The translations under genes and the position numbers were made by a program. Shown here in pieces: positions 60,077 through 63,839 of a DNA stretch of 64,000 nucleotides. Every line of letters starts with the position of its first letter. Within the stretch, counting starts at the first letter, position 1. The notes beneath the pieces were generated by a model that saw only the letters and a program-made list of their open reading frames with translations, was not told the origin of the DNA and did no database searches. The stretch is from Aequorivita aurantiaca (GTDB lineage: Bacteria; Bacteroidota; Bacteroidia; Flavobacteriales; Flavobacteriaceae): the NCBI RefSeq assembly GCF_030410135.1, contig NZ_JAUGQQ010000010.1, forward strand, positions 1-64,000. Reading direction: 5' to 3'.

Positions 60077-61465
60077 ATGATGAAAAAACTACTACTTACC
60101 TTATCAATATTTTGGGCAGTTTCGGGATTTTCGCAATTTGGCGAGCAGCAAATAATTTCTACTTCTACATTGAAACCCTATTTATCAATTCCTTTTGATA
60201 TAGACAATGATGGGTTTATGGATGTTTTAACCGCATCTGGCGAAACATATGAACTCAGTTGGTATAGAAATCTTGATGGTGCGGGAAATTTCGGAAGTGA
60301 GAATGTGATTGAGGGAACCAGTGCCTTATATCTATCAGTGGAATTTATTGATTTTGACAATGATGGAGATAAGGATATTCTTTATTTAAGAAATAATCCG
60401 CGTCAAGTGGTTTGGGTCGAAAATATAGATGGAGCAGGTAATTTTGGGGTCACCCATATATTAATTGAGGTGGATTTCATAGGTAATATACTTTCAATTG
60501 ATATGGACAATGATGGGGATATGGATTTATTGGCGGACATAACGGATACATTTACGGGATGGATTGTTTGGTATGAAAACCTAGATGGACAGGGAACTTT
60601 TGGAGAAGAGAATATTTTAATTCAAAACGACTATGCATATGTAAAATTAGCACTAGAAGATATTGACAACGATGGTTTGTTGGATATTTTGGCGACAGAA
60701 TTTGTATATAGTCAAGGTAAAATTTTTTGGTATAAAAATATGGGTAATGCTACATTTGGCCCAATGCAGATTATTTATCAATTTCTTTGGGTTCAATCTG
60801 GCGGAACCAACATTGTTGAATTTCAATATGCAGATATAAACACAGATGGAAAAAAAGATGTAATAATGACTTCTATAGATGATAATTCCGTTGCAAGCAC
60901 ACATTGGCTTGAAAACTTAAATAATCAAGGAAATTTTGGCGATATTCAGTTTATAATGGATACTGATGATCAATATCATTTTTATGATTTGGACAATGAT
61001 GCAGACAATGACATCTTACTATGGAATAGATTTACTGACAAGATTTCTTGGAAAGAAAACGAAGACGGCCAAGGAGAATTCGGAACACCAAGAACAATTA
61101 CTACCTCTGTTGATTTTCCAAGAGACGCTAAAGCTGCAGATTTTGATGGAGATGGCTGGTTAGATGTAGCTTCAGCATCTAGCGGTGACAATAAATTAGC
61201 TTGGTACAAAAATGACAGATTGGGTATTTCAGAAAATGAAGTTAATAACTACCTTGTTTTCCCGAACCCAACAAATGGAATTCTTCATATAAAATCAAAG
61301 CTACCCATTTCGCAAATTTCTGTTTTTAATCTTTTGGGGCAACTAATTGAAGAAAAGCAAAACATTGCTCAAATTGATCTATCCAAAGTAGAAGCTGGAG
61401 TTTATCTTTTAAAGATTGAAGACGAAAACGGAAATTCACAAACCCATAAAATTGTAAAAGAATAA
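60077..61465 (+). CDS. Type IX secretion cargo protein with FG-GAP/VCBS repeats
   Basis: 462 aa. Signal peptide (LLLTLSIFWAVSGFSQ), about seven FG-GAP-type calcium-binding repeats with DxDxDG loops (DIDNDGFMDVLTAS, DFDNDGDKDILYLR, DMDNDGDMDLLADI, DFDGDGWLDVASAS) and a T9SS type A sorting domain (NYLVFPNPTNGILHIKS; GVYLLKIEDENGNSQTHKIV). Secreted or surface-bound beta-propeller; ligand unknown. Two adjacent ATGs at 60077/60080. Confidence 0.92.
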   Translation: MMKKLLLTLSIFWAVSGFSQFGEQQIISTSTLKPYLSIPFDIDNDGFMDVLTASGETYELSWYRNLDGAGNFGSENVIEGTSALYLSVEFIDFDNDGDKDILYLRNNPRQVVWVENIDGAGNFGVTHILIEVDFIGNILSIDMDNDGDMDLLADITDTFTGWIVWYENLDGQGTFGEENILIQNDYAYVKLALEDIDNDGLLDILATEFVYSQGKIFWYKNMGNATFGPMQIIYQFLWVQSGGTNIVEFQYADINTDGKKDVIMTSIDDNSVASTHWLENLNNQGNFGDIQFIMDTDDQYHFYDLDNDADNDILLWNRFTDKISWKENEDGQGEFGTPRTITTSVDFPRDAKAADFDGDGWLDVASASSGDNKLAWYKNDRLGISENEVNNYLVFPNPTNGILHIKSKLPISQISVFNLLGQLIEEKQNIAQIDLSKVEAGVYLLKIEDENGNSQTHKIVKE

Positions 61466-61547: not shown

Positions 61548-62366
61548 ATGCAACTGAATAAAATCCCGAAAATAAAACACACAACTGCCAACAATTTCTT
61601 CCTTCTTGCTGGCCCATGCGCTATTGAAGGCGAGGAAATGGCAATGCAGATTGCTGAAAAGATTGTAAAAATTACCGACAAGCTCGAAATTCCATACATA
61701 TTTAAAGGAAGTTTTAAAAAAGCGAACCGAAGCCGAATTGATAGTTTTACGGGAATTGGCGATGAAAAAGCATTAAAAATACTTCGAAAAGTTTCAGAAA
61801 CTTTTGGTGTTCCAACCGTTACCGATATTCACGAAATAAGTGATGCAGCAATGGCCGCAGAATATGTGGATGTTTTACAAATACCAGCTTTTTTAGTACG
61901 TCAAACAGATTTGGTGGTTGCTGCCGCTGAAACTGGAAAAGTGGTAAACTTGAAAAAAGGTCAATTTATGAGTCCGGAAAGTATGAAACACGCCGTGACC
62001 AAAGTTACCGATTGCAACAATCAGCAAGTATTAATTACAGATCGCGGAACTATGTTTGGATATCAAGATATGATTGTTGATTTCCGCGGTATACCAACTA
62101 TGAAACAATTTGCTCCGGTGATTCTTGACGTAACCCATAGTTTACAACAGCCCAATCAAACCGTGGGTGTAACAGGCGGAAGACCGGAAATGATTTCAAC
62201 AATTGCACGTGCGGGAATTGCGACCGGCGCCGATGGAATTTTTATTGAGACCCACTTTGATCCCGCAAATGCAAAGAGCGATGGGGCGAATATGCTAAAT
62301 TTAAGTTTGCTTGAAAAACTATTGACAGACCTTGTTGCCATCCGGAAAACGGTCAATATCCTATAA
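61548..62366 (+). CDS. kdsA: 3-deoxy-8-phosphooctulonate synthase
   Basis: 272-aa enzyme condensing arabinose-5-phosphate with phosphoenolpyruvate to KDO-8-phosphate for lipid A-core. Signatures: AGPCAIEGEEMAMQIA, IFKGSFKKANRSRIDSFTGI, TDIHE, QIPAFLVRQTDL-type segment (LQIPAFLVRQTDLVVAAAET), KKGQFMSPESM and TEHFDPANAKSDG-like metal site (as written: IETHFDPANAKSDGANMLNL). The Asn-rather-than-Cys choice of metal-independent forms appears near KLEG-type N-terminus; Cys in AGPCAIE suggests nothing decisive. Confidence 0.95.
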   Translation: MQLNKIPKIKHTTANNFFLLAGPCAIEGEEMAMQIAEKIVKITDKLEIPYIFKGSFKKANRSRIDSFTGIGDEKALKILRKVSETFGVPTVTDIHEISDAAMAAEYVDVLQIPAFLVRQTDLVVAAAETGKVVNLKKGQFMSPESMKHAVTKVTDCNNQQVLITDRGTMFGYQDMIVDFRGIPTMKQFAPVILDVTHSLQQPNQTVGVTGGRPEMISTIARAGIATGADGIFIETHFDPANAKSDGANMLNLSLLEKLLTDLVAIRKTVNIL

Positions 62367-62383
62367 ATGTTACTAAAATAATT

Positions 62384-62419
62384 GAAGAGCCCTGCCAGTT
62401 AACGTTGGCAGGGCTCTTC
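62384..62419 (+). terminator. Strong hairpin after kdsA
   Basis: 14-bp perfect stem GAAGAGCCCTGCCA / TGGCAGGGCTCTTC with loop gttaacgt, 17 bases after the kdsA stop. There is no downstream T-run, so it may be a transcript-end stabiliser rather than a classical terminator. Confidence 0.6.
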
Positions 62420-62474
62420 GGCTAAAAAAAATAATTATAACAAATAAGCTTGTTGAAATTCAATTATTTACAAA

Positions 62475-62547
62475 ATGAAAAAGCTGTTCCACAAAATGGA
62501 ACAGCTTTGTCAAAGAATGGCACCTTAACTCCCCAATTAATTTGCTT
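62475..62547 (-). ncRNA. Candidate small RNA 1 (GGGG-loop hairpin + terminator)
   Basis: Predicted 5' end about 62547, from a promoter with TTGAC at 62577-62581, a 20-base spacer and CATCTTTA at 62551-62558. The RNA has a hairpin TTAATT-GGGG-AGTTAA (closed further by GCA/TGC), a short linker and a terminator stem AAAGCTGTTCC / GGAACAGCTTT (62480-62508) followed by five Ts. It shares the 18-base block AATTAATTGGGGAGTTAA with candidate 2. No convincing ORF. Confidence 0.6.
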
Positions 62548-62550
62548 CTG

Positions 62551-62581
62551 TAAAGATGCGAAGAACTTTTTTACCAGTCAA
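62551..62581 (-). promoter_or_regulatory. Promoter of candidate sRNA 1
   Basis: TTGAC (62577-62581) and CATCTTTA (62551-62558) with 20 bases between TTG-side and -7 box counted from the TTG end; identical spacing to the sRNA 2 promoter. Confidence 0.5.
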
Positions 62582-62582
62582 G

Positions 62583-62618
62583 AGGAAAAACCCTGTTTTT
62601 ATATGGGGGATTTCCCCC
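62583..62618. promoter_or_regulatory. Twin palindrome upstream of sRNA 1
   Basis: AGGAAAAACCCTGT (62583-62596), 8-base spacer, GGGGGATTTCCCCC (62605-62618). Relative to the predicted minus-strand start these are centred near -43 and -66. The same pair occurs inverted at 62758-62793. Confidence 0.65.
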
Positions 62619-62649
62619 TTTTTTGGGTGCTGAAAATATCGATATATGG

Positions 62650-62723
62650 CAAAAAAAAAGGTTGTCTGAAACAGACAACCTTCCCAAACCACTATTTATT
62701 AACTCCCCAATTAATTCTTAGTG
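62650..62723 (-). ncRNA. Candidate small RNA 2 (GGGG-loop hairpin + terminator)
   Basis: Predicted 5' end about 62721-62723, from TTGAC at 62753-62757, 20-base spacer and CATCTTTG at 62727-62734. Structure: CACTA / TAGTG closing stem, ATTAATT-GGGG-AGTTAAT hairpin, linker gtttggg, terminator AAGGTTGTCTG / CAGACAACCTT (62658-62682) with a run of nine Ts. Same conserved 18-base block as candidate 1, different terminator sequence. Confidence 0.65.
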
Positions 62724-62726
62724 ATA

Positions 62727-62757
62727 CAAAGATGCGGTATAAACAAATACTGGTCAA
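62727..62757 (-). promoter_or_regulatory. Promoter of candidate sRNA 2
   Basis: TTGAC at 62753-62757 and CATCTTTG at 62727-62734, spacer 20. One mismatch to TAnnTTTG. Confidence 0.55.
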
Positions 62758-62793
62758 GGGGGAAATCCCCCTTTTTTTTACAGGGTTTTTCCT
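62758..62793. promoter_or_regulatory. Twin palindrome upstream of sRNA 2
   Basis: GGGGGAAATCCCCC (62758-62771), 8 Ts, ACAGGGTTTTTCCT (62780-62793; full palindrome to 62795). Exact reverse complement of the element at 62583-62618 except for the spacer. Confidence 0.65.
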
Positions 62794-62846
62794 GTTTTTG
62801 AGGATTGACGGGCACTGAAGGCATAAATCAATTTTGAAAAAAAATG

Positions 62847-62889
62847 TTGTAGAATATCTTTTTTTACATTTACTTTGTTTTTCAAAGTA
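62847..62889 (+). promoter_or_regulatory. Promoter and inverted-repeat operator of the membrane-protein/wHTH operon
   Basis: TTG at 62847-62849, 20-base spacer, TTACTTTG at 62870-62877 (one mismatch). The inverted repeat TACTTTG-ttttt-CAAAGTA (62871-62889) covers the -7 box and the predicted start, a repressor-like position. The same repeat is at 63823-63839. Confidence 0.6.
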
Positions 62890-62896
62890 CTTTAAT

Positions 62897-63505
62897 ATGG
62901 ATAAAAACAATTATCTCAACGATATAAAGGACATTAAGGATTTAATGGACCGCTCTTCCAGATTTATTTCCCTAAGTGGCCTATCTGGCATATTGGCTGG
63001 AATCTATGCTCTCTTGGGCGCATTCATTGCATATGTATTTATTTTTCCAAAGTCCGGTGAATATCTTACCCTTCACAGTTGGAACTTTAAACTCACGTTG
63101 AGTCTTTTAGCCGCGGTTCTCATTCTTAGTGTATTAACCGCCTATCTTTTAACCTCGCGAAGGGCAAAAAAAAACAAAGAAAATATTTGGGACTCCACCA
63201 CCCGAAGACTTTTACTCAATTTTTTGATTCCTTTAGTAACAGGTGGAATTTATATAGTCATAAAATTGAATAGCCAACATTACGGACTCACCGCTTCATT
63301 AATGCTCATTTTTTATGGCCTTGCCGTGGTGAACGCCTCTAAATATACAATTGGTAACGTAAAATATTTAGGCTATGCCGAAATAATAATTGGGCTAATC
63401 TGTGCTGCATTCCCCGTTTATGGTTTCTGGTTTTGGCTTTTGGGCTTTGGGTTGTTCCATATTATTTACGGCAGTTTTATGTATATAAAAGAGCGAAAAA
63501 ACTGA
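62897..63505 (+). CDS. Polytopic membrane protein next to wHTH regulator
   Basis: 202 aa from the ATG at 62897 (MDKNNYLNDIKDIKDLMDRS); the frame extends to a TTG at 62834, upstream of the predicted promoter, so it is not used. A charged cytoplasmic N-terminus is followed by about six membrane spans (e.g. GILAGIYALLGAFIAYVFIF; LTLSLLAAVLILSVLTAYLL). No family function is known to me. It is followed 2 bases later by the winged-helix gene, a pairing that suggests membrane-state signalling. Confidence 0.8.
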   Translation: MDKNNYLNDIKDIKDLMDRSSRFISLSGLSGILAGIYALLGAFIAYVFIFPKSGEYLTLHSWNFKLTLSLLAAVLILSVLTAYLLTSRRAKKNKENIWDSTTRRLLLNFLIPLVTGGIYIVIKLNSQHYGLTASLMLIFYGLAVVNASKYTIGNVKYLGYAEIIIGLICAAFPVYGFWFWLLGFGLFHIIYGSFMYIKERKN

Positions 63506-63507
63506 GC

Positions 63508-63804
63508 GTGGGTATCATAGACAACATAAACAAACTTTTTGACCACCGTATACGATTGGGAATTATGAGCATTCTTATTGTGAATGAGGATGCGGACTTT
63601 AACCGGTTGAAGGAACTGCTGGCGGTTACCGATGGTAATTTGGCCAGCCATATTAAGGCATTGGAACAGGCCGAATACATTCTAGTAGAGAAAAGTTTCG
63701 TTGGCAGAAAACCAAATACTTCCTATTCAGCTACCAATTTAGGTCGCATCGAATTTAAAAAACACATTGAAGCACTCGAAAAATTAATACAAAAACCTAA
63801 TTAA
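63508..63804 (+). CDS. Winged-helix transcriptional regulator (HTH_34/MarR-like)
   Basis: 98 aa starting at GTG 63508 (VGIIDNINKLFDHRIRLGIM), right after the membrane-protein stop. wHTH: LGIMSILIVNEDADFNRLKE, LLAVTDGNLASHIKALEQAE (recognition helix) and the wing VEKSFVGRKPNTSYSATNLG. Members are small repressors that often control a membrane protein in the same operon. The inverted repeats at 62872 and 63823 are candidate targets. The upstream-extended frame to 63433 overlaps the previous gene and is rejected. Confidence 0.88.
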   Translation: MGIIDNINKLFDHRIRLGIMSILIVNEDADFNRLKELLAVTDGNLASHIKALEQAEYILVEKSFVGRKPNTSYSATNLGRIEFKKHIEALEKLIQKPN

Positions 63805-63822: not shown

Positions 63823-63839
63823 ACTTTGAAAAACAAAGT
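63823..63839. promoter_or_regulatory. Second copy of the ACTTTG-N5-CAAAGT operator
   Basis: ACTTTG-aaaaa-CAAAGT, same 5-base spacing and same following bases (ACTTTTAAT) as at 62872. It overlaps a CAACTTTG -7-like box (63821-63828), 25 bases before the ATG at 63864. Confidence 0.6.

Follow-up and report, generated by a model that had tools for sequence, protein, structure and literature searches.

To our knowledge, few small RNAs of the Bacteroidota have been characterized outside Bacteroides and Flavobacterium. The closest known system in the phylum is FopS of Bacteroides, a set of paralogous RNAs of about 65–70 nt; the available parts of its report describe an R1' seed near the 5' end, canonical sigma-ABfr promoters, and repression of susC translation (PMC11697453). 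Rfp18 of Flavobacterium psychrophilum, a conserved flavobacterial regulatory RNA, is described in the available portion of its source as pairing through its third stem-loop (PMC9723704). The closest working analogue that we found belongs to another phylum: LhrC1-5 of Listeria, for which the accessible sections of the source give multiple copies whose expression requires LisRK, a two-component system, along with promoter elements that are conserved upstream, and UCCC seeds at three sites that pair with a G-rich start region (PMC4132741).

Here, we describe a locus of Aequorivita aurantiaca with two putative small RNA genes in tandem. We use "the window" for the whole stretch of 64,000 nucleotides that was analyzed, and labels beginning with G, C, and L for genomes, contigs, and loci, respectively. 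The locus resembles the LhrC genes in its multicopy, tandem RNAs, in its conserved elements upstream of the promoter, and in the seed that we propose for the loop; the two-component control that we predict would be a further likeness. LhrC RNAs carry CU-rich UCCC seeds in loops, whereas each RNA here has a single loop reading GGGG, GAGG, or GGGA, so these RNAs do not belong to LhrC, and we claim no sequence relationship between them. As described in the available parts of the two reports, FopS differs in acting through its R1' seed, with no mention of a GGGG-loop hairpin, and Rfp18 differs in pairing through its third stem-loop.

RsmY and RsmZ titrate CsrA under the control of the LuxR-type regulator GacA. 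That system has several features in common with our locus: redundant small RNAs whose hairpin loops contain GGA, a regulator of the LuxR type (a candidate here), and an upstream palindrome. Our RNAs differ in that each has a single loop GGA and the boxes are different.

At the gathering threshold, Rfam release 15 found only five tRNAs in the whole window. A permissive scan of positions 62380–62900 gave a best match of 29.8 bits (the threshold is 60), and we rejected the sub-threshold matches in this region as chance. In the open-access literature that we searched, we found no report of these RNAs, and neither AATTGGGGAGTT nor its RNA form was printed there.

Two units with the same layout lie beside kdsA

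The features of the locus are as follows. The RNA start sites are predicted from the -10 elements. The covariance scores reflect a match that is partly by construction, as the letters of both units are in the model.

61548–62366, plus strand: convergent flanking gene (Pfam DAHP_synth_1), which we take to be kdsA from synteny and family knowledge
62476–62546, minus strand: unit B, predicted small RNA of about 70 nt (covariance model, 54.7 bits)
62480–62508, minus strand: unit B, intrinsic terminator stem-loop and T-run
62514–62549, minus strand: unit B, 5' hairpin with the GGGG loop at 62534–62531
62551–62581, minus strand: unit B, promoter (TTGAC at 62581–62577, 18 bp, CATCTTTA)
62583–62596, minus strand: unit B, putative proximal regulator box ACAGGGTTTTTCCT
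62605–62618, minus strand: unit B, putative distal regulator box GGGGGAAATCCCCC
62651–62722, minus strand: unit A, predicted small RNA of about 72 nt (covariance model, 69.5 bits)
62655–62685, minus strand: unit A, intrinsic terminator stem-loop, with a T-run as far as 62651
62688–62725, minus strand: unit A, 5' hairpin with the GGGG loop at 62708–62705
62727–62757, minus strand: unit A, promoter (TTGAC at 62757–62753, 18 bp, CATCTTTG at 62734–62727)
62758–62771, minus strand: unit A, putative proximal regulator box GGGGGATTTCCCCC, whose end adjoins the -35
62780–62795, minus strand: unit A, putative distal regulator box ACAGGAAAAACCCTGT (letters checked)
62897–63505, plus strand: divergent flanking gene, without a Pfam match, for a protein that looks by eye like a membrane protein
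63508–63804, plus strand: divergent gene for a winged-helix regulator (HTH_34)

A preliminary description of this DNA had reported two minus-strand units in 62475–62757, each with a promoter, a GGGG-loop hairpin, and a terminator, and both were present when we re-read and folded the sequence. The layout is identical: TTGAC, a spacer, CATCTTT(G/A), the 5' hairpin with its GGGG loop, a linker, and the terminator. The spacing had been given as 20 bases, which holds if the count begins after TTG; after TTGAC, both units have 18. The block AATTAATTGGGGAGTTAA occurs exactly at 62525–62542 and 62699–62716 on the minus strand, and even with up to three mismatches these are its only two sites in the window (0.27 sites are expected, and 2 of 100 shuffles yield as many as two sites). 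A third near-match of the core in this genome (AATTGGGGAATTAA, contig C22) appears by eye to be coding, and it is not surrounded by such a unit; we rejected it.

The predicted RNAs fold into the GGGG-loop hairpin and the terminator with energies of -26.5 kcal/mol for unit A (z = -5.6) and -28.5 kcal/mol for unit B (z = -4.8), and none of 200 shuffles equaled either value. At the level of sequence, then, each unit has what is generally expected of a small RNA gene: a promoter of its own, a structured body, and an intrinsic terminator, along with a conserved structure that shows compensatory changes (see below).

The product of the window's kdsA shares up to 96% identity with its Aequorivita homologs. 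The position next to kdsA is fixed. Among 54 loci from named species (described below), a convergent kdsA lies within 2.5 kb downstream of the unit in 48, and in the other six the sequence available downstream is shorter than 2.5 kb. The divergent membrane protein gene is present at 35 of these 54 loci, and the HTH_34 gene lies divergently within 5 kb upstream at 33; 10 loci are undecided for the HTH_34 gene, and it is absent from 11 that have at least 4 kb of flank. The palindrome ACTTTG-N5-CAAAGT stands before the membrane-protein/winged-helix pair (62872–62888) and again before the next gene (63823–63839), and is perhaps the winged-helix regulator's own site. Adjoining kdsA on its other side, 60077–61465 encodes a protein that has FG-GAP repeats and, at its C terminus, a Por secretion-system domain.

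The units belong to a family in the Flavobacteriaceae

Of 199 family genomes, 16 contain the exact core TTAATTGGGGAGTTAA and none contains its reversed pattern, which is more than chance would give. The window has two units; elsewhere in the family, up to four exact-core copies lie in a row. A scan of the genomes of named species with ATTAATTGGGGAGTTAAT returned 79 stretches, of which we set aside 25 by eye as chance matches (these include Microcystis, Weissella, and some Bacteroidota contigs, such as Flavobacterium frigidarium and Crocinitomicaceae) and kept 54. The kept stretches include Aequorivita, Altibacter, Ulvibacter, Marixanthomonas, Planktosalinus, Cochleicola, Aureisphaera, and Luteirhabdus. 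Together with the window's own units, they yield 73 distinct units, 71 of which have a computed terminator (as counted after the removal by eye).

We built a covariance model from 42 of the 71 units, leaving out mainly long-leader and near-identical ones, and carried out the search across the Flavobacteriaceae that the preliminary description had proposed. Of 397 family genomes, 75 scored at E = 0.01 or better, and the loop was confirmed in 34 of these, from many genera: 30 strong matches and 4 of the 45 weak ones (G118, G313, G073, and G386). We rejected the other 41 (15 and 26 in two rounds of inspection), which resemble ordinary terminators and have no loop; in the second round, the loop pattern did occur three times, but at some distance from the model match. 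A thirty-fifth genome, G284, has a divergent copy adjoining kdsA that the model missed, so loop-confirmed copies occur in 35 of 397 Flavobacteriaceae genomes. At E = 5e-4, 2 of 296 genomes in a sample of the order and 1 of 296 in a sample of the phylum matched, and every one of these is a member of the family. We also viewed 18 kdsA loci, including 14 whose genomes have no model match; 13 of the 18 had no loop motif downstream on the RNA strand.

These results describe a family rather than a local duplication, with one to several units per locus, often as tandem paralogs. In some genera (L162, L168, and L112), we also saw a long-leader form of the RNA, with 53–73 nt from the -10 to the loop and an extended outer stem.

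The loop is nearly invariant and the stems covary

One result that would speak against the preliminary description, by its own account, was homologs that lose the GGGG loop or the promoter without covariation; we did not find this. Among 141 matches representing 108 distinct units, the tetraloop is GGGG in 100, GAGG in 6, and GGGA in 2, so loop variants are rare (8 of 108), in a collection that exact-pattern searches bias toward an invariant loop and inner stem. All of the loop forms seen (GGGGAG, GAGGAG, and GGGAAA) retain GGA.

The two terminator stems of the window had been called unrelated. They are not: both read AA-R-G-Y-TGT-Y-Y, and across relatives the stem varies with compensatory changes. 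In the alignment of 42 units, there are 103 double-change cells, compared with 37 in shuffles, and 85 of them fall in the terminator helix. Double changes occur in 13 of the 22 pairs, which is not unusual (shuffle mean 11.5; 86 of 500 shuffles were as high), and the number of further pair types is not unusual either (73 of 500 shuffles).

We also aligned 68 distinct loop hairpins. There, 96% of the cells pair, four of the seven pairs have double changes, and none of 500 shuffles attained any of five covariation measures. Sliding the partners by +2 or +3 gave 9 and 8 double-change cells, compared with 10 in the real register, and just 19% and 49% of the cells paired. The hairpin of G284 has three of its seven inner pairs altered on both sides and retains the loop. 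Compensatory changes support both hairpins, and the loop appears to be what selection keeps. The inner stem shows much less change (10 double-change cells of 476, subject to the same search bias) than the stem of the terminator does, so the sequence of the inner stem probably matters as well.

With the fixed position at kdsA, the promoter, the terminator, the covariation, and the almost invariant loop, the proposal of two paralogous small RNA genes under selection is supported, and the RNA gene family is well supported.

The main rival to pairing with mRNAs is that the RNA is a decoy whose loop is bound by a protein, with arrays of stable GGA-loop hairpins titrating an RNA-binding protein. This would account for the GGA in every loop variant seen and for stem pairs that can vary while the loop is retained, and it would fit the tandem copies and the operon with like boxes and a LuxR-type regulator (see below). 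Nevertheless, we regard the decoy as unlikely: CsrA is not known from the Bacteroidota, each RNA offers a single loop GGA where Rsm/Csr RNAs have many, and the inner stem is more constrained, relative to the terminator stem, than a protein that binds only the loop would need.

Paired palindromic boxes precede the promoters

A loose -35/-10 pattern was found upstream of 99 of 112 family units (shuffle mean 15), and the strict pattern TTG-N20/21-CAYCTTT upstream of 66 of 112 (shuffle mean 0.18). The flavobacterial sigma-A -10 element is TAnnTTTG, according to the available part of its source (PMC9723704), and the commonest -10 of the RNA units differs from it at the first base. This departure might fit a promoter that depends on an activator.

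The preliminary description listed the promoter, the loop, and the terminator as the conserved parts. These hold up, but the list was too narrow: it overlooked two palindromic boxes, similar to AGGAAAAACCCT and usually 22–24 bp apart, that precede each -35 and end at it. By a strict pattern, 52 of the 86 short-leader units have the pair (the shuffles average 0.07 and never exceed 1 over 100 rounds), and at least one box is present in 79 (shuffle mean 13.7); no box was found with the strict pattern in the remaining 7. Another 26 units fell outside our crude rule for short leaders, and several of these have a box further upstream.

Double boxes also stand before a small-protein gene in three Aequorivita-type genomes (L138:1-130 on the minus strand, L204:1500-2087, and L193:919-1512; 162 and 164 amino acids where complete, with no Pfam match). 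In the window's genome, this boxed gene runs off the ends of two contigs (C5 and C50), and therefore it is probably multicopy.

A two-component operon carries like boxes and co-occurs with the RNAs

In the window's genome, a box pair on contig C33 precedes an operon whose products are a protein of 116 amino acids, a second protein that looks by eye like a membrane protein, a histidine kinase (HisKA_3), and a response regulator of the LuxR type. The 116-amino-acid gene was present in all 16 of the RNA-bearing genomes that we chose, with the membrane protein and the kinase adjoining, and in 14 of 14 further genomes the response regulator, 59–75% identical, comes next in the operon. At E = 1e-18, the 116-amino-acid gene was found in 36 genomes, and we examined 33 loci for boxes. 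A box lies at -170 to -60 in 29 of them, clustered near -110 and -88 (the shuffle mean is 4.7, and 45 of 330 other upstream windows have a box); the loci of G042, G073, G188, and G257 have no box in this range.

Across the 397 genomes, 31 have both the RNA and the operon, 4 have only the RNA, 5 have only the operon, and 357 have neither, as counted without regard to kinship. A hand tally by genus gave 18 with both, 2 with only the RNA, 4 with only the operon, and 213 with neither. Shared ancestry explains part of this co-occurrence. As for the exceptions, we saw no box at the RNA promoters of two RNA-only genomes (G089 and G287), and boxes are present there in the other two (G359 and G386). 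In the five operon-only genomes, four kdsA loci could be viewed, and none has the loop motif downstream.

From the like boxes and the co-occurrence, the response regulator of this operon is most likely the activator of the RNA genes, and we consider the two-component link to be probable. The small RNAs might instead be real and the boxes belong to another transcription factor, with the kinase/regulator operon a mere co-target. Like boxes and co-occurrence are all that tie the RNAs to the operon, and double boxes also stand before the small-protein gene described above. Set against this, the co-occurrence and the boxless promoters of G089 and G287, which have the RNA without the operon, are what one would expect if this operon's regulator were responsible, and two-component operons are often autoregulated; we consider a mere co-target quite unlikely.

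In five genomes (L237-L241), a second operon, distant from the first, encodes relatives of the 116-amino-acid protein (open frames of 165–176 amino acids) and of the kinase. A GGnWWWnCC box lies about 237–264 bp upstream of the matched part, and the membrane protein is present in four of the five.

How the RNAs might act

The best explanation, which we hold to be rather probable, is that these are multicopy regulatory RNAs controlled by a two-component system and acting through the GGGG loop. Each unit would be an independent gene for a short (about 70–75 nt), non-coding, intrinsically terminated RNA. An activator would bind the pair of palindromes directly upstream of the -35, which lie roughly two turns of the helix apart, and the copies would fire together, with several copies providing dosage. 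The activator would most likely be the LuxR-type response regulator of the operon, which itself has like boxes upstream. The RNA would then act in trans via its GGGG loop, which is exposed and would most likely pair with C-rich sites in mRNAs; we propose action in trans from the conservation of the loop.

The preliminary description had suggested C-rich ribosome-binding or start regions as targets of the loop. To look for targets, we searched five genomes for AACTCCCCAA. It has 56 sites, 13 of which are the RNA genes themselves; this leaves 43 sites, and the reversed pattern has 26. Start regions in the sense orientation hold 8 of the 43 sites and 3 of the 26 control sites, by a rule that was fixed after the first sites had been seen. 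We also noticed a perfect 14-nt complement of the loop region in G027 (L263:1500-1540), 39 nt before an ATG and downstream of a gene that resembles secA by eye; this match may be due to chance.

Two further readings can be weighed against pairing with mRNAs. The loop could mimic a Shine-Dalgarno sequence and modulate ribosomes by pairing with the 3' end of the 16S rRNA; the GGGG and GAGG forms do contain GGAG, but the GGGAAA form does not, and we think this very improbable. That the units are not RNA genes at all, but repetitive DNA elements or intergenic repeats that arose by chance, would suit their shortness and the fact that no transcript has been seen, but we think this very improbable as well, given two helices with compensatory changes, the ordered promoter, hairpin, and terminator, and the fixed position at kdsA.

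Implications

Regulatory RNAs under two-component control remain our preferred reading. A bolder analogy would make the locus a Bacteroidota counterpart of the Gac/Rsm cascade, in which a LuxR-type response regulator would drive an array of tiny hairpin RNAs whose GGA loop, nearly invariant, would titrate an RNA-binding protein. We think this decidedly unlikely, but if true, it would be a layer of control in a phylum from which CsrA is not known.

The anatomy of the family is sharp and testable: the loop is almost invariant, the putative regulator sites are phased, and a specific two-component system can be named as the candidate. This makes the family a convenient entry to regulation at the RNA level in marine flavobacteria, and it offers a test of whether G-rich loops serve as seeds or as protein sites where mRNAs lack Shine-Dalgarno sequences.
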